Assembly: GCA_002049455.2 (NCBI GenBank)
Contig: KV918795.1
Coordinates: 186,001 to 250,000 of the forward strand
Length of the DNA stretch: 64,000 bases
Direction of reading: 5' to 3'
Origin: Porphyra umbilicalis
Taxonomy: Eukaryota > Rhodophyta > Bangiophyceae > Bangiales > Bangiaceae
Part shown: positions 8,422 through 39,689 of the stretch, in pieces
Layout of the letters: each line of letters opens with the position of its first letter
How positions within the stretch are numbered: position 1 is the stretch's first letter
Position numbers and translations under genes: made by a program
The notes under the pieces: generated by a model
Seen by the model: the letters and a program-made list of their open reading frames with translations, nothing else
What the model was told of the DNA's origin: nothing
Database searches by the model: none

Positions 8422-10533
8422 ATGGTCGGCTCCCGCCGCACTGACGCATCGTGGTGTAGCCCTACCCCGGCAGCGGCCACCTTAGCAGAGGCCGCCACTC
8501 CTGTGGCCGCGGCGGCAGTCGTTGCCGCCTCTCCGCGGCGTGCGTACCATGCTCCTGAGTCTAGCCCTGTGGCGGCCGCGGCGGCGGTCCAGTCGATTGT
8601 GCCTGCAGCGGACGCGGCGGCCGCTGCGTTAGCCGCATCGGCTGCCCGGGCAGCCGCTGCAACTCTTTCTGTCTCCGAGTCGCCGTCAGACCCCGCCGCG
8701 ACGGCGCTTGCTGCTGCTGCTGCTGTCGGACGTGCGGCGGGATTGTCGTCGTCCGTCGCTGTCGGCAGCGCTGTTGTGGCGGCAGCGGCCTTGCGCCGAC
8801 GCGGAGCACGATCGAGTGCTGGGCGCGCCGAGACCGTTGGAGAGCTGGAGCAGTCGCTTCATCGCACGGTGGACACATGGGTAGATCGTGGCACTCCACG
8901 CGTCACTTCTACTGCCTACATGCCCCCCGTTCCTCTGCACGAGCTCCAGAGCGCGGCAACGACGCGCCAGACCCTCCCGCAGCTGTTCGCGGAGCGCACC
9001 ATCCCTTTTGGGGAGGAAGATTCTGCCCAGTCGCTCAAGGCCAGTTTGAGCCGCTTTAACGCCACTGGTACGACGGTGTGGGGCGCCCGGATGCATTCCC
9101 TTGCGGTCTTTGTGCGCACTAAGGGAAAGCACAATTTTTTTTCTTCAATGGAGCATGGCTTTGACGTGGGAGTGGACCGTGCGGCAGCCGGGGCTGCCGT
9201 GGCGCCATCTACCCCTGCTCGACTCCCCGCTCCTGCGCGCCGCTCACCATCTTCACATTCTCCTGCCACACCACTTCTCGACGCCAAGGACCGCGACGAG
9301 GACCCCGGCCCCGCTCATCTTTCGGCGACGCCCGCTTCCCGCCCGCGCTCCCCCGCTCATCCACAAGAATCGGCGGGCAGTCCGTTGGACTCGTCCACAG
9401 TGGTTGACACGCCCTCCGCTCTCAAACCCCAAGACGCTCCTCTCCCTGCCAGCCTGCTGCCATCATCACAGCACGCGGCCATGATGCTGCAGTCGATGGC
9501 GGTGGAGCAGGACGAGCGAGTGCGGAGCCTGGCCAAGAGCGCCCAGGTAACAGAGGTGAAAGAGATGGTGTACAGGATGAACAAGTGCATACAAGCCAAT
9601 GCTCAGTCTGCAGCTGCGTAGGCCAAACGCCTCGACGGCGCCCTGGCGGGTCTCGTATGCAGCAGCTCTACCATGACGGCAGCGGCGGCGACCATTACGG
9701 CGGCGTATCCTCGCGTGCGTGCTGGGGCTGAGACTATCAGCAAGCGGGCGCGCGTCCGTGCAGGGCTCGTCCTTCCTGCAGCGGGGTGCAGCGGTAGCGG
9801 CGCTGCCGGCGCTCGGGCGGCTTCTGTGGAGGCGGCTGCCAATACGGCTGCAGGTGTTGATGCTGGTGGTCGAGCCAGCTCCACGGCATCACCTTCGGGC
9901 GTGCCCATGGGGAACTTCTATGACCTGGTGTTCAGCATGACCATGCCCGCGGAGATGTTGTCGGGCAAGATGGAGTCCGAGTCGCTGTTTGTCATGCTCA
10001 TCAAGATGGTAAAGTGCTGTTTCGTGACGGCGGGGCACGCAGGTATGTTTGGGTCCATTGCTGTCAATCAGCTCTACCGCGACGGCGTGGAGCGTGCTGT
10101 GCGAGAGATGAAGCGCGGCAAGACGGTCTCCGGAACCATCAATGACGCCAAGTCCGAGCGCATGCGCAACATCCTCAAAAACAAGGTCAAGCTGTACCTG
10201 AGGCAGCTGTACTGGCTCAACAGAGCTGTCCCAGGGGTCATCAAGCCGCCGAGCTTGGCGTCATTTGAGGATATGCAGAAGGCCGCCCTGGGCACAACGG
10301 TGCGCCTCAAACTGGCAGAGGCGCTGCGTAGCATGGCGGACGAGTATGCGCTGCCGGCACACCACCCGCTCCGGGAGCCCATCACAGCCAAGTCGTTTCA
10401 CCTCTGCAAGCAGATCAACGCCATGTCGGGGCGCCCCGGTACCCCAAGTGCTACGTCTGACATTCTTGCTTCTTCTCCGTTTCGAGAGCTTTTGGCCAAA
10501 GCCGAGGAGAACATGAGGGCGAAGTACCTGTAG
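8422..10533 (+). CDS. Unrecognised two-part gene, copy 1 (in-frame TAG at 9619-9621)
   Basis: The ATG at 8422 opens a frame that runs to 10533 with a single interruption, a TAG at 9619-9621; both halves are in the same frame. The N-terminal 150 residues are Ala-rich. Next comes a short motif region (QSLKASLSRFNATGTTVWG, then HSLAVFVRTKG) that may be a small helix-extended-helix/SAP-like fold, a Pro/Ser-rich linker, and a helical stretch (KEMVYRMNKCIQ). The second half contains NFYDLVFSMTMPAEMLSGK, then a helical region with YLRQLYWLNRAVPGVI and EDMQKAAL...PLREPITAKSFHLCKQ. The second half resembles the minus-strand gene at 30001-31959 in the order and spacing of these motifs. No database family is recognised. 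It could be a mobile-element accessory protein or a multicopy host gene. The TAG may be a nonsense mutation, read-through, or a sense codon. Confidence 0.5.
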
Positions 10534-13176
10534 CGGGCGCCTTTTGACCTTTTTGTTATTGAACAAGCAGTTGTTTATGGCATGCCGCGTGAGCTCGAGA
10601 GGGCTACGCGCCAACCTCGTTAATGACAAAGAGCTCGTGTCGGCTCTGTACGAGTGGTGGGCACTCCAAAAGCTGGCTTGTGTTGTGGGAGCACGCTTCT
10701 AGTGCACGCACACCAGCTTGGATTCTCGCACAGGCGACGGTCACACTTAGCCGCTGCGAACGGATCAAGGTGCTGGTCAACTATCCATGCAATAAAGGTC
10801 GGATTGCACTTAGGTCTCGTTTCCCAGTAGCCGAAATCATAAAATCCATGCGGATGGGAATGATTCTTACCGTCCTGAAATTCATCCAAGATCCGCCAGG
10901 AATCCGACCTTGGATCGCCCGAGGGACAACCTGGGCGCCTCAGTCTTGGGCAGTGCCCGACGAAGGGAACCGTATGTGCCCTGCTCAAGAGGCTACTGTA
11001 CTAGAATGGACATCAAAAACATGTGCTATCTTTCACGCCGAGCTCTCCACCTCGCTTTACACTCGTACCACCTTTGATATCACCACGACCGGAACTGAGA
11101 GGAGTCATGCGTTCGACACCCTTGTTGCCATGGAAGATGGCTGCACGAAGCACCCCAGGTTTCTCGACGACCACCAAGTCCTGCACCTCTGCCTTTGTAG
11201 AGTCGACGACCTCAGCACCAGCAGGCGGTGGTGCTCGAGAGAGTAACTGTACGCACACCACCTTCCACACATTCCAGAGAGAAGGGCGGAGGATGCTGTC
11301 CGTGTGAGTTACAGTGCCCTAAGGGTGCATCCATGGTTACCTACTGCGGCGGTGCCGCGTGGCGTATCCCACTTAACCACATTCCTGTCGCTGGGATCGT
11401 GGCCAGCTGTAGATCAGAACTGTCAGGGCAGGAAGCTACAACTATTGGCCAGATCAACGAATGGACCTTCCCGATCATGTGATTTTGTTGCGCTAGCCTC
11501 CATTCAATTTGTTGTCTGCACGCTGATGACGTGTACCCGCGGAAGGCCACTTCCTGACTGTGTCGCCTCCTAGATGCAGTTGACAGAGGTGTATGATGAC
11601 CAAGGAGAAGGGGACCTGCAGACATACAGATGGAGCCCTCGCCACAACAAGCGCCGGATGCGTCGGATCCGCAGACCAGTGCACGAAAAGACACTAAGAC
11701 AAATGATGCCTCACTGCCTTTCAGTGGACACTCGCGCATATGGCTGGGGTACGCAATGCAGTCGACTGAGTAGAATCAGGAGCGCTGGGAGTGGGCACCT
11801 GGGGACAAAGGAAAATGGGAAGCAGACGTCGGTACTGAGCCCATCCTACCACCTACACCGAACGTGCTGACTACAAAGAGTAGGACCCAGGATGACACTT
11901 AGGCTCTTAATCTCGTGTCTTCCTGTGAGCAGCGCAGAACGGCGTCTGGAAAAGGAAGCATCCGACTGAGTGGCGCGAAGATATGTGAGTGGGGGCAGCT
12001 GAGGCTCAAGAAGTGCTGGTAGAAAGCTTTGTTACAGAGCCCTTCCTACCGTCGAGACCGAGGTTTTGGCTCCCCATGGCGGATACAGCTGAGAAAGGAG
12101 TGCGGTCGCGCTCCATCGCCCATACATCAGCTTTCAAGTGCTGCTAGCGGACGCACGATGCTGTCACAGCTGCTGCCATGTGCACAGGATGGGATTGGTC
12201 GATTCTACAACCTCCAGGTGGTGGTTCTCGTCATTCATGAGACCAATGATAGCTCATGGTTCATCTTTTGCCCCCCACCATGGACCTGTCCAAGGATACT
12301 TGTGGAACTCCGGTCCAACAACGTTACTAACTACGAAGCCAAGTGCTGCTCTGTGTTGGCGCAATTGAAGCGACCATCATGATTGGCTCCTCGCGTCCAC
12401 CGTTCCTTCTCGATCTTGGACCTCCCCTGCATATACCGGACTCGCGACGCGAAGGTGGAGCAGATCACCACGATGGCAATGATAGGCTGCCAGTCCAGTG
12501 CCTGCTCGTCGGAGCGGCTGTGGGTCTGCCCGCCTCTCAGCATTCGCCACGCTGCCAGTGCAGCCATGAAGGAGTGTTTTCTGCCCCATGTCGCTGAGCC
12601 GAACGGCGAACACAACGATTCTTAATTGGTGGACGTGGTACGCACCTTTCTCAGGGAGCGCTTCACTGGCACCTTCGCGGTGACGAGCGCAGTTGGTGCA
12701 CCCTTTGCTGTGCATGGAAACGGCCTGTGGTGAATAAGGACTGCGTCAGACTCTTTGCCCGACTGCAGGTGTGAGGAGGCGAGGCAGAGGGGGAGATGCT
12801 CCTCGGTGGCAGACAACTCCAGCCTGCACGTACCGCCGCAGCAAGCTTCTCCGCAATCGGACCTCCGCGCGCTAGTTGGTGTCCTGCGGAGCATGTATAC
12901 TCCAATGTGTCAAAAGAAAATGAGCGTCTGTATTGTTCGACTTCCTGACCCATCCTGTGTGCGGCTTGCCCGTTCCTTCTGCAGCTTCCCCGCGCGATGC
13001 AGCAGCCCCCCCCTCCATTACCGCAGTTCATGAGCTTGGGTGGATGACAGAGCGGTGTGAGCTAAGTCCATGACACACAACGATGAGACCTATGAAGTAA
13101 TAGAGGTACGGTCCGTGACCCATAACGATGAGAACGAGAACATGATAGAGGTCCAATCGACTACAAAAAACACACG
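10534..13176. other. Long stretch without a supported gene
   Basis: Composition is close to balanced. Frames of up to about 200 codons occur (10623-11246 plus; 12331-12615 minus), but none shows a domain, and no sequence shared with other parts of the window was seen. A degenerate tandem duplication of about 45 bp lies at its right end (13062-13165). Confidence 0.45.
13062..13165. repeat. Two degenerate tandem copies of a ~45-bp unit
   Basis: The block GACACACAACGATGAGACC...ATAGAGGT is followed by GACCCATAACGATGAGAACG...ATAGAGGT. The two copies share ACGATGAGA and ATAGAGGT at the same spacing. No function is suggested. Confidence 0.6.
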
Positions 13177-13692
13177 CTACTCGTCAGCACGAAAGTAGGG
13201 GTGGGTCGGCACGCAATCACGACAAGCAGGGCCCGCGGCGGAGTGCTGATGGCACACGTTGTACGGCGGCAAGTCGTTGCGCGCGACGCAGCCCGTCCAG
13301 AAATTGCGCACAATCGGGCGCACCATCGGCTTGAAGACAATAAATGCGTAAGACCGATCGGGATGACCCTTCACAAAGAGGAATACATCGTCAAAAAACG
13401 AGCACAGGCCGCGCTTTGTGCAGCACGCGAACGGCATCTCGTTCAGCTTGGCACGCATGCGCAGGTAGTAGCGGCAACCGTCCCCATTGTGGGCGTCCGG
13501 ACGAATCTCCAGGAGCGTTCGAACGACCTCCCACAGCACGCCGCGCGACAGGAAGGTAGACCTCGGAGGAGGAGGGGTGCCGGAAGGAACCTCAGCGTGC
13601 TCGTGGGGTCCGGCGGCCCCTTGAAACGAGTTGGCTGTCCAGACAGGGGGGATACGCTCTGGGGCGCGGCGCTGGACGCGGCGGCGGGTCAT
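13177..13692 (-). CDS. Hypothetical Cys/His-containing protein
   Basis: This 171-codon frame has protein-like composition after its first 45 residues: FLSRGVLWEVVRTLLEIRP, YYLRMRAKLNEMPFACCTKR, FFDDVFLFVKGHPDRSYAFI. The C-terminus is rich in Cys and His (VCHQHSAAGPACRDCVPTH) and could bind a metal. The first 45 residues are Arg/Pro-rich and may be non-coding, so the true start is uncertain and an upstream exon is possible. No family is recognised. The overlapping plus-strand frame (13201-13791) looks like its shadow, being Arg/Gly-rich without hydrophobic blocks. Confidence 0.45.
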   Translation of the reverse strand: MTRRRVQRRAPERIPPVWTANSFQGAAGPHEHAEVPSGTPPPPRSTFLSRGVLWEVVRTLLEIRPDAHNGDGCRYYLRMRAKLNEMPFACCTKRGLCSFFDDVFLFVKGHPDRSYAFIVFKPMVRPIVRNFWTGCVARNDLPPYNVCHQHSAAGPACRDCVPTHPYFRADE

Positions 13693-14258
13693 CGCGTCGA
13701 CGTACAGTGGGGGGAGGGTTGCATGGGGCAGCGCCCGGCTTGGCGTTCGCCGTCGAGAAGGGTAGCGGGGCCGGGAAGGGTTGTGCCTTGAAGGATGCGC
13801 CTAGCATAGTGGCAGAGCCACGCCAAGCAGGGTCAATCGCTTCGTGTCAAACGAAAAGCGCGCGTCGCCAACGAGGCACGATCCACCATAGATCATTGGT
13901 GGATCCAAAGATATCAAGACAAGTAACCTGTACTGTCATGAATCCGAAACGTGTCAGTTGGGTGCTACCATTGAGACGGCCCTCCTGCCCTCTGGGGGCG
14001 CCTCGAGATCTGCCGGTCTGTTCCGAGAATTGCGTCCGTTGCCTGAACTGGGGCGGGTGCCGCGGTACCGCCATGAAGTGCCCTTTCCACCGTTTTAGTG
14101 GGTCTCTGTAAAAGAGATCCCGCGCAAGCCGTGGAGCGTCCTCGCGTGCCAACGCCTCCAGGTGCCCCGGACCCGGCTTTCGTGTGCACCCGCCCCCCCC
14201 CCCGATTCATTAAGCTCTTTGAAGGGGGTATGGCACCTGCGGCTGTCACACCCCGTTG
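13693..14258. other. Gene-free stretch left of the family-A element
   Basis: It contains short unsupported frames only, and a C10 run at 14196-14205. No repeat was seen. Confidence 0.45.
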
Positions 14259-14438
14259 GAGCATTCCCACCAATGTCGGGTCAACGCCATATTGGGCACA
14301 CGTTGCAGAAACGTGTCTCAAATTCGCCGTTGGCCAGTTCTCGGGGCGGGTAACAATGTCGGTCGTGCACGCGGCGTTGCCAACGGAGGTCAAGCGAGTT
14401 AAAACGCGAATGTACTTGCGTCCGATTCGGAGTCAGAG

Positions 14439-14509
14439 CCGTTGGCCCCGGGGCCAACGAGTTGCCAACGGAGCCTCCGTTGGCAACTCGTTGGCCCTGG
14501 GGCCAACGG
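14439..14509. repeat. 71-nt near-perfect palindrome of nested CGTTGG motifs
   Basis: Arms 14439-14473 and 14475-14509 are inverted copies 35 nt long with one mismatch and a 1-nt spacer. Each arm contains its own smaller palindrome (CCGTTGGCCCCGGGGCCAAC in the left arm). The motif is the same CGTTGG/CCAACG string that is scattered through both ends of the host element. The DNA could form a cruciform, and an RNA copy would form a very stable hairpin. Confidence 0.9.
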
Positions 14510-14989
14510 GTCCTGTGCTCTGATTGGTCCATCGCAGGTTCACGGGGTTAAATGAGTGACATGTGGCACTTCATATTGTCCTCAGAGTGCCCGACTTATC
14601 ATAATTTTGTTTCGACAGCTACCCACGGATGGAATATGGTCCCTGTCAGAACTAAACGGCCACGTGCCTGCTCGGCCCAAGGACCCCGATCGTTAGAGTG
14701 TGTCACGTATCTGTCGTGCGGTGGAGCGCGGCCGAACGCGCTTGCAGGCACGTCTGACAAGGGGCGCGTTTCCACTGAGACTGGCGCAACGAGTGGATCG
14801 GGCCACTCGAGCGGGCACACGAGGCGGGGCCGGGCCACCGCCCCGCATCCTGACTGGAACGGTCACCAAGCCGCCGTAAAAGCGGCCACGTAAAACAATC
14901 AGCCGGCCCCCGCACAGCAAACAGCGCCGCAGGGCCCCCCTGAGAACCCCCGCACCCCCACGGCCACCTCCCGGCCACACACCGAGGCG

Positions 14990-17240
14990 CTAGCACAGGC
15001 CCAGACCCGTGGCCGTCACCACACCCCCCCACTCACCCCCACGGCTGCTACCCCCCCCGCCACCACCGCCTACCGCCGCCCTTGCCGTCTCCACCGCCCC
15101 CGCCCACAGGCCCGTACCCGCCGTCGCCGACCGCCCGCGCCGTCCCCGACCGCAACAGCGCCGCCGCCGCCCTCGCCGACGCCAGCCCCGTCCCCGCCGT
15201 CGCCGTGCGCCCCCCCTGCCGTCGCCGGACACGCCGTCGCCGGCTCCGACGCCGTCCCCGCAGACCACCGCCCCCGCCAACCGCCGTCACCGCCCCAACC
15301 GCCATGCCCACCGCATCCACCCGCCCCCTCTGTCGCAACCGACCGCTGCAGCCGGCGCCGAGCGGCGCCCCTACCGACCGCCACCCCCGCCGACCGCCGC
15401 TACCGCCCTCCTCGCCACTTTCCGCCATCGCCGGCCGCCCCCGCCGCCACCGTCAACTGCGGCGCTTTACTCCGCGCCTACCCCCATTGGCGCCCTCCCT
15501 GCCCGCCGGCGCCCTCGCCGCCCCTTCCGCCGCCGCCGCTTGCCGCCGCCTCGCCCGCGGCCGCTGCCTTCTGCCGCCACCCCCTCAGCCGCCGTCAACG
15601 CCGCCCTCACCGCCGGCAACCCCGTCGGCCCCGCCAACTGCGCCGATACGACAGCCGCACCCCCCCCCGCTCCCACTTCCGCCGCCGCCGACGGCCGCCC
15701 ACGTTGTCGCTGCAGCTGCCAACACTGACTTTCGCCCCATCCGCTGCCGCCCCGTTTGCCACCGTCGACTGCGGCCCCCGCCGTCGCCGCCCCCTCGGTA
15801 GCCCACGCCGCTCGGCTTCCCCGCCCTCGCCCCCGTCGCCGCCGTCGCCTTCTTCCTCTCCCGTCGCCGCCTACCGGTTCGCCCGCCGTCGTCGCTCCTT
15901 TAGCCCCCGCCGACCGCCGCCGCCGCCGCCGCCGTCGGCCGCCGCCGCCGTTGCTGTCCCTGCCGCCTTCGACCACCACCCCTGCCGTCGCTCCCCCCCG
16001 CGCCACTGCCAACCAGCGCCCCCGCCGACATCTGCCCCCGCTCTCGCCCCCGTACCCGGCGTCCCCGTCCTCCCGCCCCGTCGCCGGCAGCCGCCGTCCC
16101 CGCCGACGCCACCCCTGCTGCCTCCGCCGACCATCGCCCTCGCCGTTGACGCGCCAGACTGCACCGCTGAGCGCTGCCCCCGCCGTCGCTGCCTCCTTCT
16201 CTGCCGTTTCCACCACAGCCGCTGCCCCCTTCGACCGCCTTAGCCGCCGGCGTCGGCCGAACCGCAACCGACGCCGTCGCCGCCGACGGCGGCCACGGCC
16301 ACGGACGCCGCCTCCGCCAATCAGCGCCGCTGCCGCTGTTGCGGCCGATGACCACTTCCGACGACCGCCCCTTCGGCCATCGCCACTTCTGGCCCAACAG
16401 CCACGCCCGTCCTCGCCTCCGACACCAGCGCCGGCGCGGCCGACCGGCGCCCCCGCGGCCGCCGTCTCCAATCGGCGTCACGGCCGACGGCAGCCGACGA
16501 CACCTTCAGGACCTACCCCGCCGCCGCTGACCGCCACCCTTTGCCGGCCGATGCCCCGCCCGCCCCTCCCGCTGTCCCCCAGACTGTCGCGACGGCCGTC
16601 CGCCGCGCCGCCCCAGGCCGCTGCATCCCCTGTTGTCTCCCGCGCCTCTGCCCCCGCCACCGTCTGCAGCCGCCGCGCTTTCCAACGCCGCTGCAGCGGT
16701 CGGCAGCCACCGGCTTCCCCTTCCCCCACGCCGTTGTTGGCCGTCACCGCCGCTATCTGCGCATCCGCTGCCCCCGCCGCCTTCACCGTCGTCGGCTGTG
16801 CCCACCGCCCCTGCTCCCGCCGCCATATGCCGCGGCCGGCGCCGTTCTTGTCGTCCCAGCCACTGCCTCCCGCCGCCCCTCCTCTGCCAACGCCGCACGC
16901 GCCGCTGCAGGCCTCCGCCCCCGCCACAGCCGCCCTCTCCCCCCCCGCCGCCGTCGGCAGCGGCCCCCGCCGCTGGACCCGCCGTTGTCGGCCGCCCACA
17001 CCGGCCCTAACGCACCCGAGGCAGTCGCCCACAGGTTCCTTTTGCTCTGCAGCTGTCCGCCCCCACCTCCATTCCCGCCCTCTCTCCTCCCCCCCCCGCT
17101 ATCACCCTCTCTCCCCCCCCCCCGCTACCGCCCTCTCCCTTCCCCCCCACGCTACCACCTCCTATCGACGACGGCGAGTATCTCCTTTGTGGCGGCCAAC
17201 CCGCCGTTACAGCCCCCCCCGCCCTCCCAAGCCAGTTAAG
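14990..17240. repeat. 2.2-kb CCG-like low-complexity tract
   Basis: The plus strand is almost pure C and G with CCG/CCGT words. Long frames therefore open on both strands at once (570 codons at 15756-17468 plus, 334 codons at 15467-16471 minus). Their products are Pro/Ala/Arg-only or Gly/Arg/Ala-only, and I regard them as artefacts of missing A and T. The tract lies inside the family-A element. Confidence 0.75.
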
Positions 17241-17890
17241 GGCGGTGTCTTACTCATTTCAGGGGCATCTCATGGGCTGTTAATACCAGTAAGAAGGTCG
17301 TGCTCCCATTTTTGTTTGACTACGACACACAGATGGGGACCTTTTAGGCGGAAGAAGTCGGGAACTTCCTGCTCAGTGCATGCGCATATAAATCTTGTAC
17401 AAGTACTTCTTTTTTCTGTCCCAGACACTCTTCATGTCACTCTGCCTCAAGGCCTCGTAGGCACATGACGAGAAAGAATGGTTCGCGTTCGGTTTGCTCC
17501 CATCCCCCCCGCGGCATGGAGGCATTTCCCCAGCGCGTCGGAGGCGACGCCGTCGAGGCCGACGGCGCGGAGGCGCGAATTGGCCGCGTATGCAAGAAGC
17601 GCCGCGCTGCAAGGCGGGGGGGTGGGGGTCGCCGGTGCGCGCCGCCAGCCGGCCGTCCCAGACTTCGGCCGCCACGTCGCTTCTGTGTCGTTCCGGAGGG
17701 GGGAGGAACCGGGGGGGAGAGTTGCGTGAAGCCGGTCGGGGGGTGGAACTGGCAGGCCAGCGGGGAGGGTGCGCGCGTCGCTAGCTGGTGAGTGTGCCTT
17801 GCTGCTTCCGATGGGTGAGGGCGCACCGGGGTGGACCTTCGGCAGGGATAGTGCTCCAGGTGGGGCAAAGGGGGGGTTGGTCGTGGGATA

Positions 17891-18331
17891 TTGCTGATCC
17901 CCCAATTCTGTCCTCATCGCCCCGGAACGGTAGTGGAACGGCCATGAATGCAGAGCTCTCATTGGTCGAGCAGTCCGACAGCAGTGCATGTCCGGCCCGA
18001 TCTTTACAGAATGTGCCCGTACGGCCCCCAATCGCACAATCGACGCCTTCGTTTTTCTGCACTTTTCTGCGTATCTCCCAGAAAATCTCGATATCCCAAC
18101 GATTGCGGGCCGGTTGCTCCCTTGACACGGAAGGGATCGGAAGAAAATCTCAAGAAAAAGAAGGATCTCGGTTCTGCACGGAAGTGGCGGAGGGAGAGCC
18201 AATAGGACGCCTCAGATTCGTGCTGAGCAGCTGTTTACGGCTGCGTTTAACCAATAGATGGCCAGTTTCACAAGAACCATACCGCCAGGAACCGTTTTTG
18301 GTCGACGAGGACAGAATTGGGGGATCAGCAA
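17891..18331 (+). mobile_element. TA-flanked MITE, 441-bp class, copy 1
   Basis: The ends are inverted: TTGCTGATCCCCCAATTCTG at the left and its complement at the right, flanked by TA at 17889-17890 and 18332-18333. The inverse copy at 40540-40980 has the same length and is about 97% identical by eye. There is no coding capacity. A TA duplication is typical of Tc1/mariner-like MITEs. It lies inside the family-A element, so it inserted later than that element. Confidence 0.92.
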
Positions 18332-19559: not shown

Positions 19560-22148
19560 ATGCAGATAAGTGCGGCGGCCTTCAAGCCGTGCGCTCTGCC
19601 GGAAGGTGCTTCGGCGCCCCCCGAGGTGGCTCCGGTTGGTACTCCGTCACAGGCGCCGACCTTCGACGAGCCTGCCCAGTTGGGCGCGCCTGGCTCCGCG
19701 CCGCACCCCTCCACCAACCCGCAGTTGCTTTCAATGCAACAAATCGTGCAATCCGAGTGCCACAACATCGAGGAGGCCGAGGTGACGCGCGTCGCGGCCG
19801 AGCGACGCCGGGCGGAGCTGAACGCGCTTTCTGTTACGGCCCCCGTTGCTGTTGTGTCGCCTGCTGCTCCTGCAGGGGTGGAGCCGGCCTTCGTGTTTTC
19901 CGTCGTGCCACCCGTTGAGGAGCTGAAGGACGTGTCAGACGTCTTCGTCAGCCAGTACATGCTTGCTGTCGTCAGTACTTGGCCTCAGCCGATCGTGTCG
20001 CGCAAGCGGAAGGAGATGAACAAGGCGGGTAAGGAGGGCGCGGGTGCGCCCCGGGGCGCCGACCTTGGCACCAATGCGACCCTTAAGACATGGTCTAGTC
20101 GCATCCGGACGGCGTGCGCGTTTGCTACTTTTGTCGGCTCTACCGTGTGCCGGCATGAGGACCGGCCGCGCCCTACGGACGAGGAGGCCGACCGCGGCGT
20201 GCGCAAGTTTTTTCGCTGCATCACGGCCTACACCAAGCTGGTGGTGACGACCTTCCTCGAGTGCCGCCGAAGGGGCTATCGCGTGGCCGGCGGCGGCAGG
20301 GCGCTTAGCGCCACCTCCTTGAAGGACTACTCGTCGGGCCTCACGTTTTTGTTTACTGAGGCAAAGGAGGATGGGATGCGGGGAGTCACGGCCGTGGTAC
20401 CCGACTGCTGCGAGCGCTCGTCGCCGTGGCAGCCGAAGGGGGTGGCGGACCTGGTGGCTGAGCGTCGTGTGCGTGCGGACCCTGGCGGGTTTACGGGCAA
20501 CCCCATGGCGACAGCCGACGTGCGAGTCTTTCACGGGGCCACAAACAAGTAGGCTCGCCATGACGGGGAGACCCAGTTGTCCGGAGGCGCCGTCACGACC
20601 GAGATGATGGACAGGCTGTTCGATGAGATGGTGCGCGCCCACGCGCCACTGCCACGGAAGCGCCACTTCGCTGCTTCCGACGCGGTGGACACGCTGATTT
20701 TCGCCATGGACAACGACACTTCTCGCCGCGTTGCAAAGTCCCGTTTGTCTGCGGGCGCGTCGGAGGGCGCGTCGGCGGCGGAGACGGCAGGCGCTCGCTG
20801 CGGCTTCCCCAAGGCGTTGGGCGGGCCAAGCTCCAGCGTTTCGGCGGGCGCGGGTGCGAGTGGGGGCTCACGGGACGAGGATGGACCTGAAGCGGGTGAC
20901 GCACTGGACATGGATGGCGAGGCTTCCATGGGCGAGGAGGAGGCCGGCGGTCTCCCGGCGGTTTTCAAGGCCCCCTCCAATGCACTGGCGGACTTCCTGG
21001 TGTACGTCTTCTACGCTTTTGCGTTTATCACCATCGCCCGCCCGATCACCCTCATCAACCTGAATTTTGAGGACTTCTCCTTTCCCGACCTCTCTGTGGC
21101 CGAGAACGATGTGTTCTTCAACCTGTACGTGTGTTGCGCTCCCCATAGCTGCTCTTTCATAATGCGTCGATGATCAGTCCCTTGTGTGACTGTCTTGTGC
21201 GTTGGTACGCTCGCTGCTGTGGAACACTCGGATACTGACTGGCCCATTGCTCTCTACCTCTTGATTCTATTGCGGGGCTTGACTCTTGGCTGTTGCCCTG
21301 GTTGCCTTCCTCCCTTGCTTGCATTGTCTGGAGCACACAGGCACGGGCACCATCGACTCTTCGAGGTTTCTCTGCGGGTCACAAAAACGGGGGCATCCAC
21401 CAATGACGTTCTCAAAGTCCGTGTCTTCAGCTTCTTTGCGGATATCTCCGAAGAGGAAGAGAAGCACCACGGCGCGCAGGCATTTGTGCAGTGCCCATCC
21501 GAAGAGCTCAACCTCCCCCAACTTTTGCAGCCGGTTGTCCTCTTTGCCCTCTCTGCCCCGGGCGTGCACATGGACATGGGCATCCTGGCCGAGCAGCCGG
21601 TCTTTCCGAGCTTGTCGCAACGGACAATGGCCGGCTGTGTCGCCTTCTTTAAAAAACGTTCGGAGACGGACGTCAACGCACGATTTGTCGCTGACCTGGC
21701 GCGCATCGGCCAGGACCTGGTGCTTGGCGAGCGCGCCTGCCGCATGTACGGCTTCCGTCGGGGCGGGGCGCAGGCGCTTCTCGACCGAACGGGCCTCTAT
21801 GAGCAGGTCATGAAGCTGGGCGAGTGGAAACCGACCTCCAACTCTTTCTTGCGCTACATCACGAAAATGAACGCGCGCGAAACTCTACGCTCGACTATGA
21901 GATCCTTCGCCCAAGATGACGTCAAACAGGTGGTGGCGCAGTTGCTGTCAACCTTCAACACTTGGGCGGTTGGGCTAGTGCGGGACCTGTGCGCGCACGC
22001 CAGCTTCGAAAACGGTGTGGTAGACCACTCCGCGATGGTGGAGTTCGAGGCCAACAATGTCAAGGCGCTGGGGACCCTCGTGTGTGAGTGTGTCCTGTCG
22101 GTCCGCAACGGAAAGGAGGAGGAGGCGGCGTCGGAGAAGGATGAATAA
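19560..22148 (+). CDS. Tyrosine recombinase, Crypton-like, copy 1 (in-frame TAG at 20550-20552, one intron)
   Basis: The ATG at 19560 follows a TTTCAG acceptor at 19545. The frame runs through one TAG (20550-20552, between HGATNK and ARHDGE) to a probable intron at 21131-21340 and continues in phase to TAA at 22148. The C-terminal third carries the tyrosine recombinase signature: Arg in ITIARPITLINLNFEDF, a RVTKTG box, CRMYGFRRGGAQALLDRTG (normally HxxR, here YGFR), GEWKPTSNSF and the likely nucleophile Tyr in LRYI. Residues 1-130 are Ala/Pro-rich; 130-330 hold a helical domain (core-binding type) with TTFLECRRRGYRV, which recurs in the decayed copy at 38.4-39.2 kb. Such enzymes move Cryptons by DNA recombination. 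No reverse transcriptase is near, which argues against a DIRS element. AATAAA at the 3' end (22145) may serve polyadenylation. Confidence 0.75.
21131..21340 (+). other. Probable intron in the tyrosine-recombinase gene
   Basis: It starts with GTGTTG and ends with GCACACAG. Removing 210 nt joins NDVFFNLYV to HGHHRLFEVSLRVTKTG in phase. The second recombinase copy at 38.0-39.2 kb also loses homology just after the matching point and regains it (SRVTRT) after about 80 nt, so the intron position seems to be shared. Confidence 0.6.
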
Positions 22149-22833
22149 AGGTCAGGCTTTGTCACTGTGTCACAAATGCGGGGCACCCGTCGCTGCTTCT
22201 TCAACGGCGGGCGGTCACGAAGGGGTACCAGGGCCAAAGCAGGTCTTCCGACTCAATGCCGCCGCCTCTGGTGCTGGTTGCGCCGTTCCGGAGCTCTGTT
22301 TTCTAACCCTACGCCGAACACACCCGCTCCCCTTCCCCTACCATTGCATTGAGGCAAACCCGGAGCACACAAGTATCGTCCAGCTCGTCGTCTTGGACCA
22401 CTCCAGCATTCAGGCAGACAACCAGATAGGAACGCACGCACGCTATAGACGGGTTTGCAAGGGGCCTCACATTGCCAGGACGGCGGGCGTGTGCCGAGGG
22501 AAACCCACACGGACACGAGTATCTGGCCGGCTTCATGTCTGGTGCACGGATGTCAGGGCTCAGACACCCACCAGACATACTGTACCGACACCAGACATGG
22601 ACCAGACACGTTGACTGAGGACTTGACCACCACTTTGTAATTTATGTGGTACGAATTACTGTGATGAGATGCATTAGGTTAACGAGAATGACTCAAGCGT
22701 ACCTCACGGCCTAAGTCGAAGAGCGACGGCTGGCACCGGAAAGAAGGAGACGATGCAAGAGAAGGTGGAAGAGCATGGGTGCAAGGAGAGAATACGGAAC
22801 AGCAATGGAGAAAGATGCAGACGACGGAGGTGT
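22149..22833. other. Convergent intergenic region
   Basis: This is 685 bases between two converging genes. No gene, repeat or strong terminator-like structure was seen. Confidence 0.5.
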
Positions 22834-25230
22834 TTAATACGGAACAAGGGAGTCGTGGAACGACACCGCCACACCATCAACAATGACCTTGTCCTCGTCA
22901 AAACCAACCAAGTGTAGGCCCGCCAAATAGGGAGTGCGAGATAGACCAGACAGTGCCTGACCAGCAGCCCACGCCTTGCTCAAGTCAACCGCAGCCTCGG
23001 GTAGAGTCCAACCTTGCGCACCGTGGATGGTCATCGCCCAAGAAAGCACAAGAGGCAGTTGAGTGCGCGTCGCAGCCTTCTCAGCACCGTACAAAGCAAC
23101 CACGCTGGCTGTCACAGGCATCACGTCGACGGTCTTGAAGCCTCCAGACGGCAGCTAAAACCGGACCGTGGGGTACCGCATGCACCCGACCCAGAAAAAG
23201 CAAAGTACGACACCCCGAGAGCCCGACGGGACACCATCCTCCGCCAAGCAGTTATAAAGGACAAGAAAAAAAGCGCCCACTCGTTCAGAAAGCACACGCA
23301 AGAACTTGAGTCCCTCATCTAGCAGGTTGCGAGCGCCCTCCAGCGGTAGGTACGTCACCTTGACCTTATCTTGCGCATGGTAGGTGATGTCGGGCCCCGG
23401 CAGCCGCTGCAGCTCCTCCTCGTTCTTTTCCCTGGCGGGCAAGGAGTGGCAAAAGAGCCAAACGGCGGTTGCCGGTGGCATGGCCGACCGTCGTGTCGCC
23501 AACAGCTCCATGTCCTCGTTCGTGTGCAAGCCGACGCGCATCCTCAGCAGCACGTCCAGCAGCCGCCGGTCATTGATGTGCCTCCAGTGGGTGTCCAACA
23601 CAATGGCGCGGCTACCTCATACCTCGCGCCACGCGTCGCTGAGGAAGGCAAAGTTGCCGACGGGTGGTGCCAGTTGGAGGAAGTCCCCAGAGAAGAGGAC
23701 GAGCAGGCCGCCAAACGGGAGGGAGCATCGTCGCAAAGCACGGAGCACCACGTCCAGTCGTGTGATGAGCGCGGCAGAAAGGGTGCCGACCTCGTCGATA
23801 ACAAGCACCATGGTGGAGCGCATCCTAAACTTGGCGGAGGCAGGGATGACCTTGGACAACACCGTCTCTAGTGGCGACACCACGTCCGCGTCTCCGTTGA
23901 TGAACCCTGTCCACGCGTGGACGGTCGTGCCACCGACCAGCGCGGCTGCTGCACCGGAACTCCCGCAGACGCTCACCGTCAAACCGACGGACCGCAGCGT
24001 ACTGACGACCTCGTTGACGAGGTGAGTCTTCCCGCATCCCGGCGGACCAGTCAAAAAGACGCTCTCGTTTCCCACAAGGAGACGGTAGACCTTGCGCTCC
24101 GCGCCAACGACGGTAGCGGGTAGCTCCACTCCGTGGCGGAGAGCGGCTACTCGTTGGCTGCGGCTGCCATCTCCACCTGCTCCGCCGTAACTCCACGCAA
24201 TACGCCTTCGCTTCGGGGAGCTTTCGGCGCCACGTCCTTGGCCGCGAGAACTGGTTGGTGCACGACGTGAAGCAGTAGCCGTAATTGGGTGCCCAGGAAA
24301 AAGTGAACGGCCTCCCACCGTGCCCGTCCAGGCCGCGATACTGGTAGGTGTCGCCTCCGCCGCGCGTTCTGCCATAGAGCGTGCCCCACGGACGCCACCG
24401 ACCGCAGGTGATGTTGTCGTCAGGCGCCGCCGTTTCCGGTCTTGAGGGCGAGTGCCTTGACTACTGGTCGGGCGCGGTCGAGAGCGAACGTCGGTAGTGC
24501 GGGGGTCAACCGGCACGGGGTGGGGAATAGGAGTGGGCGCGACTTCGAGGGCGAGCCCGGCGACAGGCACACCGTCAGCGCATTGGTGAGCGCTAAGTTG
24601 AGCAAAGACCTTGGAGATGCTCGCTGGATCCGACAAGTCGACGACTGCCTCCTCCCCAGCAAAGAAAGTGCTCACGAAGAACCCTTGAGATGGCAAGAAG
24701 GTGGGGGGCGAAAGCGGTGGTGGTCGGACAGACGGACCAGCATGACTGGCAGAGTCAGGAAGCGAGGCAGCCCAATGGGCAGCCGCGTCGTGGTTGGTGA
24801 ATAGGCGCAGGTACAGAGTCCAGGGGCGGAGAAGATGAGTGCGCCAGTCGTCAGACGACGAGGGTGAGGGTCCGTCGAGAACAGAAACTCGGCGTGCCGC
24901 AGGTACGGACGCGCAGCGGGTGGACAGAAAAAGTGAGGGGGGAAGGGGGGGGGAGCGGGGCGTCGAGAGGGTGGGGGGTGACGACCTCATGGAAGCCAGC
25001 AGTGCGGGCCCCTCGAGGGATTGGGCAGACGGCAGCACACGGTAGCACACGGCAGCACACGGTAGCACACGGCAGCTCACGGCAGCGCGCAGCAGCGAAC
25101 AATAACAGCAGGACGAAGCGGGCGACGGCAGGGATGGGTGGTACACAGCGTCAATGGGGGGGACGGGGCGATAGGGCGTAACAAGGTCGGTTGTGGTGCG
25201 CCGGCAAAGTCGGCCGATCGTCTGTTGCAT
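22834..25230 (-). CDS. PIF1-like DNA helicase (in-frame TGA and TAG)
   Basis: Helicase motifs appear in order on the minus strand: Walker A FLTGPPGCGKTHL (near 24040), a SSGAAAALVGGTTVHAWTGF block, Walker B VLVIDEVGTL (near 23800) and motif III LLVLFSGDFLQLAPPVG. The C-terminal block follows with LPLVLSWAMTIHGAQGWTL and GQALSGLSRTPYLAGLHL. PIF1 enzymes are 5'-to-3' helicases that unwind G-rich and replication-blocking DNA. The reading frame stays the same over the whole length. It is interrupted only by TGA at 23617-23619 and TAG at 23155-23157, and the family sequence continues across both. There is no indel. The N-terminal 250 residues are Pro/Ser/Arg-rich and the start is unsure; an ATG near 24990 is an alternative. 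It converges on the recombinase gene at 22148. Helitron Rep motifs were not seen, so this is a stand-alone helicase or part of an undefined element. Confidence 0.85.
25026..25092. repeat. Short tandem repeat of CACGGCAG/CACGGTAG units
   Basis: GCAGCACACGGTAGCACACG-type units recur about six times, alternating CACGGCAG and CACGGTAG, within the 5' part of the helicase frame. On the minus strand they read as a Cys/Arg/Val/Leu/Pro repeat, which suggests the true helicase start is downstream of here. Confidence 0.7.
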
Positions 25231-25235
25231 GGCAG

Positions 25236-25590
25236 GGCGTGCTCCGCGGGTTGGGGCACGCGGCGTGGCGCGCGGGGCACGTGGCTTGGCGGGCGGGGCA
25301 CGCGGCGTGGCGCGGAAGGCACGCGGCGGGGCTTGCGGGGCTCACGGGGCGCGCGTTGCGAAGTGCCGCGCGGGGCACGCGGCGGGGCACACGGAGCTCG
25401 CGGTGGTGCTTGTGAGAGACACGGGGCGCGCGTGGCGAAGTGCCGCGCGGGGCACACGGCAGGACGCACGGAGCTTTCGGTCGGGGGTGCGGGGCAAACG
25501 GTGAGGTGCGCGTGGCGCGCGTGGCGCGCGGGGCACCCGGGGGTGCGCATGGGGCGTTGCGCGGTGCGCGCTGGGCACACGGCGGGGCAA
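25236..25590. repeat. GC-rich minisatellite-like block (GGGGCACGCGGCGTGGCGCG)
   Basis: Imperfect units built from GGGGCACGCGG and GTGGCGCG recur about 15 times. Frames on both strands are low complexity (RAPRGTSQRAPR-type) and are not called as genes. Confidence 0.7.
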
Positions 25591-27807
25591 GTTCTGACGC
25601 TTGGTGGCGGTTCGGAATGCGGCACAGATCAAATTGGGTCACCCCGGTGGACCGCCGCAGCGCGCTTGCGTCGGTGAGCCAGCTTCCATGGGCCAGTTGG
25701 GCCGATCGGGCCACATTCAGCGCTGGTGCGGCAGGTGGCAGAACTGGCGCGCAAGCCCTGGCTGCGGAGCTGCGTCGGAGGAGTCTTTGGGGGATGCATG
25801 GGGGATGCAGTTGAGAGTTCGAAAATGAGGTGGCCTCTGACCGTGTTGGGTGGTTGTGGTTCGATGGGCCCGGCTGGCCCGGCTGGCCCGGCTGCGCCAG
25901 ATTTCAAGACTTTCTGGCTGCGAGATGCGCTCCATTCATGGCCTCGGGCCAGGCAATATCTTGCAGTGTGGCCCTGACTGGACTTCGGTTGGCCTGGACG
26001 GGCGAGATCGGCCGATTGGTTGCCGGTCGGCGGAGGGCGCCAAATTAACACAAAGGGGTGCTACATATCCGATTGCCCGCTGCAGACGGCACTCCCACTA
26101 TACTCAGTTTCGCGCTACTGGCGAAACTGGGTTAACTTGACCGAAACTGGGCACGCCCTCCCCCAGAGCCTCCCCCTGAGAGCCCCCCCCCAGGCCGCTC
26201 CCCGCACCCCCCCCCCGCGCCCCCCCCAGCCCCCCCAGGCCCCCCAGCAGCCCCACCCCCCCCCCCCCCATCAAACCCCCCGCAAGCCCCCCTCCCCCCC
26301 CCCCACACTTCCCTTGAGAGCCCCCCCCGTCGATTGTAGCCCACCTACACGTCGAATCGACGGGGTGCGTTTTTTTTTTAATACAACCTCCCAGGGCACC
26401 ATGTCCCTCACCACAAATGGTTACCCCCATCGGCGTCGTGCTGCCGGCAATCGTGACAGCGAAGGAAAGGAAGCCATAGGACGTCCAGGACGCGGCACAG
26501 CTGGACGAGCCCGCGTGGCGCGGCTGTGTGAGCCGCGCGTTGCTGCCGCTCCTGGCGGCGGTGATGTTCGGCGACGCGGGAGGCCGTAGTGGCCCGGTTA
26601 GCGCCGCCGATGGCGGCGGCGGCCGGAAGAGCGTGACGAAGCATGGCAGCGGCGGCCGGAAGAGCGTGACGAAGCATGGCAGCGGCGGCAGCGGCGGCGG
26701 CGGCAGCGGCCCCGCCACGTAGCGGCGGTCATACCGAGCCGCAGCTCTGCCTTCTCCGTCAACCCCGTCGTGCAGCTGCTGTTGCACCACAGCTGCAACA
26801 CGCCCGCCAGGCGGTGGATCGAGACGTGAGGTTTTGGCGCTTGCCGGAGTCGCGCGCGTTTTGCACCGCTGCCTCCCCACGTCCATTGCGTCGCGGGCAA
26901 TGGCAGGGTGTGGGCGGGCACTCGCCACGACGGCGGCGGCCGTGGCGGCGGTCGAGGCCGAGGTCACGGCGGCGGGGGTGGCGGCGCTGTTGGATTACTC
27001 GCCGCGGCTTCGGCGGCGGTCATTGCGGGCACGCGGGTGGCCATCGAGGCGGGGGTGAACGCCGGTGGGTGGGTGTCGAGGCTACTCGACGCAGCGGACG
27101 TGACCGCCAATAGCGCAACCACCGCCGCCGCCACCGCCACCGCCACCGCCGCCGCCGCCGTGTCGATCGCGCCCGCACTGGCCGCCGCCACCGCCCTGTG
27201 ACACGCGGGTTGAGTCGCGATTGACGGCGTCGTGCCAGGCGCGCCGAGTGTCGACCACCCCCCCGCTACGGGTGTGAAGTCCCCGCGTCGGCTGCGGCGC
27301 TGCGCTCCTGCACATCGCGGGGGGGGATCTCGGCAGCTACACGGCGGCCGCGCAGTGGTCGGGGCGGTGTCCTTTGCCGGCGGGGCGGTCGGCCGAGGCG
27401 GCGGCGGTGCTCGACGCGCTGACCGAATAGCGTGCTGGGGCGGCGGGGGCGCCGCTGGGCGGCATCCTCCCGGCGGTCGCCGCGTGCGTGACGGCGGGAA
27501 CGGGGGAGGTGCGCTGCCGGGCGGCGGGGCGTCTGCGATCGCTTGCGGGGGCGGCGGTGAGCGCGGCATAAGGGGAGGGGGCACGCCAGTGGTCGGGGGC
27601 GGATAGGGGAACAGATTAATTATGTGAAGTGCGCCGGTGGCCAGACGCGCGCCAGACGCCGCTGCTGCGGCTGGTCGCCCGTGGGGTGGTCCGCGTATCG
27701 TCGACGGAGCGGGGGTCGTGTTCGGTATGGGGCGCCGCCGCCCTCGGTGGGTAGGTGTACATAGGGGTGGAGAGGCCTCCTACCCCCTGCAAATTGCTGC
27801 TTATTCT
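25591..27807. other. GC-rich stretch, gene content unclear
   Basis: 26160-26340 is a C-only tract and 26660-27600 is a GCG/GCC-rich block, with open frames on both strands. The most protein-like reading is on the plus strand from the ATG at 26411: MVTPIGVVLPAIVTAKERKP, then a TAG, then DVQDAAQLDEPAWRGCVSRA in the same frame. It soon runs into Gly/Ser repeats. I do not call it a gene. The stretch at 25850-25890 has a short CCCGGCTGG tandem repeat. Confidence 0.4.
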
Positions 27808-28758: not shown

Positions 28759-28995
28759 TGCAGGTCGGTCTCTGAAATGATGCTCAGAGCCTTGCGCGAC
28801 GTGAGAATGTGCCTTGATCGCCTCTCTGGGGGCGATCGTCGGTCGACTCGTTTAAGGCCCACCTGGGCCTATACCGGGTGTGACAAGGTCGGGGATTGAC
28901 TGTAGTGGTGAGGGGTGGGCGGTGAGAGGAGGCATGGTTGCCGGGCGTTCGGAGGAGGACATAGGGTGGTCGAGGGCGGCAAGTTGCACGGGTTA

Positions 28996-29235
28996 GAGCA
29001 TACCCAACAACGTCCTCCCCAACTTCGAATATGCTGACGTGTCAGAAACGTGTCTTGTAAATGCGCCACGTGCCTGACTTTGAGCTCTTTGGGATGGGGA
29101 GGGTCCCCTAGGACCCGAACTACAATCCCAGTTCGGGCCCTCCGATCCCACCGATCCCACAATCCTGGCCCCAAGCCCTAGAATCCCACGATTCTGATGC
29201 CCGAACCTATAGAAACCAGCGAGTTTGACAGACAC
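28996..29235 (+). repeat. End of a family-B TIR element, copy 2
   Basis: It starts with GAGCATACCCAACAACGTCC at 28996 and matches the inverse of 440-225 over at least 90 bases, with weaker similarity further in. The other end of this element was not found in the window. It also shares CAGAAACGTGTCT with the left end of the family-A element at 14312. Confidence 0.65.
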
Positions 29236-30000
29236 CTGGACGACGGTCCGTCAACTGGGCCAACCAACATTTCTTGGCCAGATCATAGCCCGGTCGGGCC
29301 CGAGAAAATCAACAGATGGTAATTTCATTTCTCTACAACAAAATACACACCAACCACAACTAGATATATTCGCCACGAAAGACTGACGTAAATGAAGGGA
29401 TTTATGTCGAAGTGCCAAAACATCTTTGGTAGCCAACCAGGATGCTATTAGCACATGATATGTTCCAATAGCAAGTTGTTGTCTTGTCTAGCGCCGACAC
29501 CGAACGAGGCATGTCATGCGGCAGATTGAGGCACCATCGCCTTGCATCAGCCAGACGGAGGCGGCCGGCCGAAGGGGTGCGTCCCGACGTCCGTGTTTTG
29601 TTTTCTGCAGCACAGTTGCGCTACCAGGACGGGGATGATGGCAGGAAGGAGCGACCGCCGCCGCCGAGCTGGCGGGGCGGATTCGAAGGGGGCACCTGCC
29701 GACGAGGCGGCGCGGGGGGACACCACCCGGGTGGCGTGAGCCGCAAAGGGGCGGGGGCGGGGGCGAGCCCCCCCCCCGACCGTAAGGGCGCCCTGACGGG
29801 AGCTGAGTACCGTGAGCAGCGGGGGTGCGCGGTGCGTGGAGCGAGACGACGGGCGTGTGCGGAGCGGGCGGGCGCTGCTCTTGGAGGCAGAGATAGAACC
29901 AAGCCCCTTCGTGTGCACGCATTACTCTCGGTATGGTGCAGGTACCCCTTTTCCCCCATCGATACAGAGAAGACGACGACAGAGAGACCTTTCGCGTTCT
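29236..30000. other. Stretch without a supported gene
   Basis: 29236-29480 is AT-richer than its surroundings and shows no gene. 29500-29960 is GC-rich with frames open on both strands and no domain. It lies just downstream of the gene that ends at 30001 on the minus strand. Confidence 0.4.
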
Positions 30001-31959
30001 TTACTTCTCCCCCGGTAAGATTGTCACTGCAGGTTTGCCGTAGCGACCAGGCCAAGCCGTGATGCAAAACTCAATCCACGGCCGAATGGCGGCGTTCTGC
30101 GCGAACGCCACCTTGGGCTCGCCTTGGCGCTTGTCCCTTTTTGCCTTGGCCTGTAGAGCACGTCGGAGGTGCGTGTACGTCACTTTGCTCCTCTGGGGCA
30201 GGGGGCTGTCCAGCGGGGCATCGATTTCCGCCGCAAGGACAGAAATGGCCGCGTACACGTCCTCTATGAGACCATGGAGGGGCACGGCCGAATCAGCTTG
30301 TGTCACAGCGCGGGCGAGGAGACCTTGGAACACCGAGGGCACCACCAACCGCATCCATAGCACCACCCAGAAGCAGTTCCCCGCACGCACGACCGCGTTG
30401 TCAATCTTCTTTGTTGCAGCCGTGTTGACAACATCTTCTTTGTTGGCATTCTCCATACGGCTCTTCTAAGCGCTGCATGACCGAGCCGCGGCCATGGTGC
30501 CATACAGCCTCGGCTTTGCCGCCTCAGTGTGGCACCAGCTCTTGAGCAGCTCAAGCCGGTCCGACGGCTTGCCGCCTAGCGGCATATCTGGAATCAGCTC
30601 CGGCACCATGTTGAATGTGTTGACCGACAGGTCCTCAGCACCGGCCACATCGCGGGTGTCAGCTGCGCCCACCTTGGTGACATCTGCCCCAGCGCCACGA
30701 GAGACCAAGTCTGCTGCCGTCAGTGCACGACGCTTCTTTGCCCGATACTTGAGCTCCCGGTCGGTTTCCCGCTTTCCTCTCCCTCGCCGTGCCTCTTCTG
30801 CAGAAAAGGCAGTGATGTCGCGGATGTCCTCAATGTTGCGCGAGACGTCGTCGAGGCGGTCTTTCACCCTGATGACGGCCGCCTCCACACGACCGACCTG
30901 CAGCGTCATAGAAACCCGTTCGCCGCGCGCCTGCAGGCCGGTCCGAAAAGCCGCAGCCGCCGTGGCGCTGCCGGCAGAGAGGGACTGGACGAGATGCTCC
31001 TCTTCCGTGGACAGGACAGCATTGGGAGCGCCGGCAACGCTGGGCAGACCATGAGTGCCAGGCAAGAAGCCCGCGAGAGAGGCGAGCTCGTCCGCACCGG
31101 GCGCCTCCATCTTGGAGGGTATCCCAAGAGGTATCTGGAAAAGCAGGAGTCCTTGGTGCTTCTCGCGTTCGCCGTGAAGAAAGCTACACAGTCGACGAGC
31201 ACGGCCACACTGCCCAATGTCGACGCTGACAAGATAGTCGGTCAGCAGCTTGACGAGCCGCGTCTTCGTCGCCGCCGGGTAGAAATAGATACCGCGCATG
31301 TTGCAAAAGTGGATAAGGTCAGAACGCTTTGTCGACTCTTTCTTGAGGATGCTCACTGGAACAGCCGCGACATCGTCCTCATCGACCGAGATGCCCACTG
31401 ACCCGGAAGCGCCGCCGACCGCAGCAACCGCCGGCGTAGCGGCTGGCACACGGGCCGTACCATCGTCCGTGACGCGGGAGACGGCCTTGCTTAGTAGAGC
31501 CGGTGTGGTTTCGGCCACAACGACCGCAGCGCCGTACACAGGCGGCGCAGCGACCCTGTTACCAGCAGCAGCGCGCGCCGATGTGGCGGCCACGCAATGG
31601 CCACCCATCGCGCGCAGGGCTGCCACAGGGGTCGCGGACGGGATACCGCCGCCAGCTGAGGCCATCCCCAATGCTTGTACAGGACTCGAAGCAGTCGCCG
31701 CTCCGTCTCCCGCCGCCACCGCCCTTGCCTTAGATTTCACAGAGGCAGATGCATTGCCGGTCGTCGCGGTTGCGGCCGTTGGTGTAGAACCCGGTGCCTG
31801 CAGGGTCGGAAGGTTGGTCTCAGTCACAGCCGAAAGAGAACGCATAACGGCGGACTCAAAGTACGCAACGCGAGTAGCTTGGTGAGCAATGCGACGTGCC
31901 GGCACTGCTCTTGACGATGTTGTTTTGGCGTGACGCTGCGCGAGCTGTAGAGTACTCAT
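30001..31959 (-). CDS. Unrecognised two-part gene, copy 2 (in-frame TAG at 30466-30468)
   Basis: The ATG at 31959 (MSTLQLAQRHAK) opens a frame to TAA at 30001 with one TAG at 30466-30468; both parts are in phase. Domains in order are: an Ala-rich region with an acidic patch (VDEDD); KRSDLIHFCNMRGIYFYP and TKTRLVKLLTDYL, which look like a SAP/HeH-type helix pair; a coiled coil (VEAAVIRVKDRLDDVSRNIE); a basic segment with RELKYRAKKRRAL; NTFNMVPELIPDMPLGGK; and, after the TAG, KKIDNAVVRAGNCFWVVLWM, LVVPSVF and a segment ending near HLRRALQAKAKRDKR. The order and spacing resemble the gene at 8422-10533, so the two are probably distant paralogs. The basic, coiled and SAP-like parts suggest nucleic-acid or chromatin contact, but this is inference. 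Confidence 0.5.
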
Positions 31960-34762: not shown

Positions 34763-34909
34763 GAGCGGTCCATGCGTGTGTAGCTGTCAGGTTTCGCGTT
34801 CAACGCTAGGCAGACCTCGTTGTTTGGGATGTAGCTTTGGATTATATCCTTTTTGTGATGCAGTCTTTCGTGCTTCTCTAGGACACAGTCACACACTGTT
34901 CGTTTTCGA

Positions 34910-39680: not shown

Positions 39681-39689
39681 TGCAGCTGT

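Follow-up and report, generated by a model that had tools for sequence, protein, structure and literature searches.

Genes A and B lie in a 64,000-nucleotide stretch of the genome of the red alga Porphyra umbilicalis (GenBank assembly GCA_002049455.2, contig KV918795.1; C35:186001-250000 in our contig numbering), referred to here as the window. They are related, decayed copies of one mobile-element protein. The elements that carry this protein are best read as multi-gene, Crypton-like transposons. Their gene set comprises A or B, a divergent gene resembling tyrosine recombinases (YR) and a PIF1-like helicase, with a fourth gene, X, in one subfamily. We consider it likely that the A/B product is an accessory, probably DNA-binding, protein of this multi-gene DNA transposon family. 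An earlier note on this DNA had guessed that the two genes might come from a mobile element. That guess is now supported by a genome-wide family, conserved YR-like and PIF1 neighbours, common element ends and a gradient in the ratio of nonsynonymous to synonymous substitution rates (dN/dS).

The A/B protein family

The reading frames of both genes were found at the coordinates given beforehand, 8422-10533 and 31959-30001, and each contains a single internal in-frame stop, TAG in both cases. Gene A (8422-10533, forward strand) is broken by a TAG at 9619-9621 and resembles the intact gene of C513 at the DNA level over 8411-10534. Gene B (30001-32169, reverse strand) is broken by a TAG at 30466-30468; the open reading frames (ORFs) of C55 and C327 start at the equivalent of 32169, not 31959. 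The genes had been described as two-part, which does not hold. The relatives in C513 (A, 709 aa) and in C55 and C327 (B, 722 aa) are single uninterrupted ORFs, therefore the two parts result from a nonsense break and are not exons.

The C-terminal blocks of A and B (12 A versus 2 B sequences) gave a probability of 98.0% (E 1.6e-13) in profile-profile alignment. The SAP/HeH-like blocks gave 97.2% (E 3.8e-11) with eight A and five B sequences; C57, which would have been the ninth A sequence, was dropped because the pattern missed it. With 50 column shuffles per block, the best probability was 1.7% for the C-terminal block and 0.8% for the HeH-like block. The two genes thus align far above chance, and the layout that the earlier note had seen in both reflects homology. 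Judged by sequence comparison, A and B are homologous members of one protein family, alignable in both conserved blocks. The C41 locus is found by the A query (E 1.8e-4) as well as by the B query (E 1.9e-19).

The proteins consist of an Ala-rich head, the HeH-like block, a coil, a basic patch and a helical C-terminal block, with the coil, basic patch and helix labels assigned by eye. The W-x3-VVP-x-V and ED..PL..HL blocks were found as described; the wording NF-x2-V...MP-x2-GK for a further block fits neither copy exactly, the sequence being NFYDLVFSMTMPAEMLSGK in A and NTFNMVPELIPDMPLGGK in B. Pfam returned no family up to E 10 for four A/B proteins and two HeH-like segments, in agreement with the suggestion that the family is unnamed. 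Relatives of A were not found in phage records, the PDB (by sequence) or IMG/VR viral contigs, and in the databases searched no relatives of A/B were found outside the P. umbilicalis genome.

Copy number and gene order

In the 83.8 Mb genome (665 contigs) the A query matched 24 places and the B query seven. These merge to 28 distinct loci, both window loci included, and the suspected multicopy status is thereby confirmed. The genome also has twelve matches to phycobilisome linkers, four of them on contig C665 (three in a single frame of 893 aa, as would be seen in a plastid genome) and eight spread over seven further contigs; this suggests a red alga, with a glaucophyte much less likely. At 15 of the 28 loci, A/B has a YR-like gene no more than 25 kb away and PIF1 no more than 35 kb away; the clean count is 14 of 28, as the PIF1 counted for window B belongs to the window's A-type element (element 1). 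The chance expectation is that at most about 0.5 of 28 loci would lie near a YR-like gene (30 places of 50 kb each in 83.8 Mb). The locus count used 29 of 33 YR search rows (the four omitted are second pieces of listed loci) plus one row from another search. For PIF1 it used 31 entries, the stronger part of 86 rows, with split hits merged and weaker rows omitted.

Gene order is constant within each type: A>, YR, PIF1< in the A type and PIF1>, YR>, B> in the B type (arrowheads give orientation). At all 11 A loci that have a YR-like gene, both this gene and PIF1 are on the downstream side, PIF1 being convergent with A; the YR-like gene is on the same strand as A in nine cases and on the opposite strand in two (C76 and C19). 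The B-type order is found at C182, C55 and C100, with long gaps in the last two. The C55 and C327 units, which are on different contigs, are 98-99% identical. The order in C64 is A>, X<, YR>, PIF1<, and its YR-like and PIF1 genes correspond to window positions 19.9-22.0 kb and 22.8-24.9 kb, with 70-75% DNA identity. Gene X occurs on five contigs, every one of which also has A; it was not found in the window, where its matches were of low complexity only.

Ends and length of the elements

The genes described above recur, in the same content and order, in repeated units with common ends. Six copies have a common left end: the window (at 8004), C513, C40, C37, C57 and C3. The 19-mer TCGGCNNCCCGGAGTCTGG from this end has 19 matches in the genome with at most one mismatch, versus 0 for a reversed control. 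Ten of the 19 are upstream of A genes and nine have no A gene close by. The sites without A/B (C52:237107, C23:234751, C29:256891, C56:271282, C118:102405, C237:44470, C261:90795, C326:48685 and C355:61945) are possibly decayed or non-autonomous elements.

Right ends were placed from two pairs of copies, C40/C37 and window/C513 (26162 in the window and C513:16409). The window/C513 end has CAGTTTCGC, then GCGAAACTGGG and CGAAACTGGGCACGCC, and shares no more than a short terminal stretch with that of C40/C37. The C40/C37 right end was not found in the window, where the right end was set from C513 instead. A B-type end is common to the window, C55 and C327, and the window copy has CCCGAACT...AGTTCGGG. 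The fetched loci and the window together contain nine copies of the sequence CGAAACTGG, eight of them no more than about 100 bases from an element end and one in gene X. Exact 12-base inverted repeats were looked for at the breakpoints of four units and none were found. Short direct repeats of 4-6 bp were not evident at the termini of C40 or C37, whose exact ends are uncertain by a few bases. The elements of C513, C40 and C37 (148687-160597) are 11.4, 10.0 and 11.9 kb long, respectively. The units are bounded by common ends and measure about 10-12 kb when little interrupted.

Coding constraint

We calculated dN/dS by the Nei-Gojobori method in 12 comparisons; the gene X pair was too diverged for use. 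For deep pairs, in which the values are rough because synonymous sites are close to saturation, dN/dS is 0.14 for YR and 0.15 for PIF1 (C64/C125), 0.21 for the C-part and 0.32 for the N-part of A (C513/window) and 0.23 for YR (C64/window). Mid-age pairs gave 0.34, 0.38 and 0.42, B gave 0.73 (C55/window), and the two youngest pairs gave 1.04 and 1.38. There is coding constraint on A, YR and PIF1. The gradient is that expected if the genes are selected during element activity and are neutral after a copy has landed, and it supports transposon behaviour.

Values below 1 are also compatible with a host gene family that grew by ordinary duplication and has YR and PIF1 as chance or hitch-hiking neighbours, as are the 13 of 28 loci at which neither YR nor PIF1 is near. 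This is very improbable in our view, since the order and orientation of the neighbours are constant, copies with 34-75% protein identity have conserved left ends, dN/dS is at least 1 in the youngest copies, and many copies are broken. A different possibility is that YR and PIF1 alone make up the transposon and A/B is cargo that gives the element or the host another advantage. YR and PIF1 do occur together on C568, C237 and C18, where A/B was undetected; the C568 YR-like gene starts 2 kb from a contig end, and A may be too diverged to detect. The constraint on A/B resembles that on YR and PIF1, and A and B are homologous and have been kept despite the different order of the subfamilies, so we hold a cargo role to be unlikely.

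The helicase and the YR-like gene

The PIF1-like helicase matches PF05970 with 79.6 bits in C64 (E 3.3e-22) and 74.6 in the window, the cut-off being 25.9. The C64 helicase ORF has matches to helicase/ATPase families only. There are 86 PIF1-like places genome-wide, and many of the weaker ones occupy 900-1100-codon open frames that do not resemble those of these elements; further PIF1-bearing families seem to exist in the genome.

Five residues are invariant across seven divergent members of the YR-like family, namely the Arg of box I, a Lys, the GFRRG Arg, a Trp and a Tyr. The spacing R-x22-W-x9-Y equals that in the genome's own DIRS recombinases, which were found by PF00589 and served as a yardstick. 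Among 200,000 shuffles of the invariant columns the R-W-Y pattern arose 25-32 times and all five residues 4-8 times, in a test that was set up post hoc, after the pattern had been seen. The motifs favour a tyrosine recombinase and the profile tests are negative; on balance we think it quite probable that the gene encodes one.

The points that weigh against this identification, and against the transposon as a whole, are, besides the post hoc nature of the motif test and the 13 loci without either neighbour, the following. The box II His is replaced by Tyr or Cys. Alignment of YR with the DIRS recombinases by hhalign gave 0.2-0.5%, and shuffles reach 1.8%; the box I register looks right, with a score no better than shuffles. 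YR was not recognised as a recombinase by Pfam, PHROGs or the PDB (sequence). Pfam gave at most two sub-threshold chance matches and no match to PF11917/DUF3435, PHROGs gave two matches (E 0.17-0.19) to function-unknown families with one of five sequences, and the four PDB matches (E 0.58-1.1) were all unrelated enzymes. Single-sequence AlphaFold prediction on window sequences reached a predicted local distance difference test (pLDDT) score of 39 for the YR-like protein. The likeness of A/B to SAP or HeH domains was seen by eye, and neither model had a Pfam match in A/B up to E 10. The two CGAAACTGG sites in the window are, taken alone, unremarkable (11 of 100 shuffles). Neither an empty site nor a target duplication or circle was observed.

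Searches with YR gave one match in plasmids (E 4) and nothing usable in bacterial genomes and IMG/VR viral contigs; family searches with gene X also gave nothing usable. Across the genome PF00589 matched 18 places, none of them at the YR loci of these elements. Loci L048-L060 are DIRS-like recombinase ORFs matched by this family. A second YR-like class has the same motifs and is present at L066 (C302:14000-15600), L067 (C6:258200-259600) and L068 (C163:112000-113400). It is in one frame at C302 and C163, and no PIF1 match was found on C302, C6 or C163.

A possible mechanism

In the model that we propose, YR would cut and rejoin DNA at the element ends via a phosphotyrosine link. By analogy with Cryptons, from which the circle is carried over, it would excise the element, probably as a circle, and then insert it elsewhere. 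The HeH-like helix pair of the A/B protein may bind the subterminal CGAA(A)CTGGG repeats, which are putative sites, and its coil may mediate multimerisation; A/B could thereby bring the element ends together. PIF1 would unwind DNA, which would allow copying of the element or resolution of the intermediate.

The two elements of the window

Element 1 (8004-26162, forward strand) is of the A type, can be followed end to end and is enlarged by nested repeats. It has its left end in common with C513, C40, C37, C57 and C3 and its right end in common with C513. The left end covers 8004-8062 (forward), with the conserved 19-mer, an exact match to TCGGCNNCCCGGAGTCTGG, at 8014-8032. Exon 1 of the YR-like gene (19707-21122, forward) has box I near its end and a stop at 20550 (tblastn with the C64 gene 53%, E 4.7e-147). 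Exon 2 (21339-22148, forward) contains the K, GFRRG, W and Y, as identified by tblastn (61%, E 2.3e-107) and alignment. The PIF1-like helicase (22837-24897, reverse strand) is interrupted by two stops, at 23619 and 23157, and is supported by tblastn with the C64 gene (56%, E 0.0) and by PF05970 (E 1.1e-20). By comparison with C513 the right end (26105-26162, forward) consists of inverted arms CAGTTTCGC/GCGAAACTG and a second CGAAACTGGG.

Element 2 (29095-39118, reverse strand) is of the B type and incomplete at its high end. It starts at about 29095, extends antisense to at least 39118, has Copia elements near it and aligns piecewise with C55 over 29101-39082 at 88-95% identity. Its 3' end (29095-29135, reverse; CCCGAACT...AGTTCGGG) has an end point identical in the window, C55 and C327. 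Part of YR-like exon 1 remains at 38420-39118 (reverse; tblastn 27%, E 1.7e-22) and a remnant of exon 2 at 38090-38218 (reverse), which matches only residues 218-260 of the C55 protein, at 81%. The part with box II, W and Y has been lost by deletion, and some 620 bases of L035 lack a counterpart. Both copies in the window are dead: A, B, YR and PIF1 all contain stops, and the second YR-like gene has the deletion. The span 8422-31959 had been treated as a single feature, which it is not; it does contain most of one element plus the B-gene end of a second in opposite orientation. The first reading had missed the internal stops, and also the recombinase-like gene and helicase of the same element between A and B.

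Three repeats of about 400-450 bases resembling miniature inverted-repeat transposable elements (MITEs), with inverted terminal arms of 43-48 bases, are present at 17889-18333, 40538-40982 and 49621-50023, one of them inside element 1. Another repeat within element 1 (17761-19253) is also found where the C57 element breaks off, and its last 224 bases recur at window 1-224. Copia-type retrotransposon genes lie at 40145-45914 and 60738-62783; the first region is flanked by 99% identical repeats resembling long terminal repeats at 40145 and 45386. A tandem array of a 30-base repeat occupies 39607-40176. The sole tRNA call (Cys, 40944-41023) overlaps the end of a MITE-like repeat and may be false. 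Rfam had no match in the window.

Comparison with known systems

Eukaryotic YR DNA transposons are known chiefly from the small Cryptons and from the giant Starships of fungi, the latter being YR-driven multi-gene elements. The elements described here would likewise be YR-driven multi-gene elements in a eukaryote; they differ from Starships in being far smaller, in carrying a helicase and in having no PF11917/DUF3435 match in Pfam. We rate them as a kind of tyrosine-recombinase DNA transposon, pending proof of a recombinase fold.

The likeness to Cryptons (Kojima and Jurka 2011, PMC3212892) is that of a DNA element in which YR, assigned by motif only, is the sole apparent recombination enzyme, with no terminal inverted repeats found and no reverse transcriptase in the ORFs scanned. 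Unlike Cryptons, these elements encode a PIF1 helicase and the A/B protein, in some cases also X, and another residue replaces the box II His; the 4-6 bp terminal repeats of Cryptons were not seen here. The word 'helicase' occurs 0 times in the Crypton paper.

DIRS elements of the same genome (L048-L065) have the same recombinase-core spacing, R-x22-H/W-x9-Y; they differ in that no reverse transcriptase was matched in the units here and that there is no profile-level similarity. The RVT_2 matches of the window belong to Copia elements outside the units. Helitrons and Helentrons also have a PIF1-family helicase, no terminal inverted repeats and a hairpin-like end. In the present elements the helicase is a separate gene and a YR-like gene takes the place of Rep, and Pfam gave no Rep (HUH) nuclease match in the C64 helicase ORF, A, B, X or YR.

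Among Polinton-like viruses, which can integrate into algal genomes, YRs and superfamily 1 helicases occur (PMC4642659). The size and convergent genes of the elements are compatible with a decayed virus of the Polinton-like or virophage kind, having a YR integrase and a helicase, in which A/B would be a structural or unknown viral gene. In the unit ORFs scanned there was no Pfam match to a capsid, packaging ATPase or polymerase. The A, YR and second-class YR profiles had no match in IMG/VR contigs, and A had none in phage records. We regard a degenerate endogenous virus as improbable and favour the transposon.

The terms 'tyrosine recombinase', 'PIF1', 'transposon' and 'helicase' together led to two Polinton-like virus papers and a screen of fungal transposon co-option. 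No eukaryotic transposon with YR and PIF1 is described among the literature matches listed (titles and abstract starts); most subscription papers and Repbase were outside this scope and may hold one. More tentatively, and with the odds somewhat against it, the elements might form a new superfamily of eukaryotic DNA transposons. It would combine a divergent YR (R-K-Y-R-W-Y), its own PIF1 and a previously unseen end-binding protein, would couple excision by the recombinase to helicase-driven copying, and would have at least three gene orders in one genome.

Whether YR DNA transposons multiply by excision and reinsertion or by copying is unsettled. A PIF1 helicase beside a recombinase-like gene, with a conserved partner protein and defined ends, offers a test case for transposon replication. 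The analysis also gives a name to a protein family whose members would otherwise be annotated as lineage-specific hypothetical genes of red algae.

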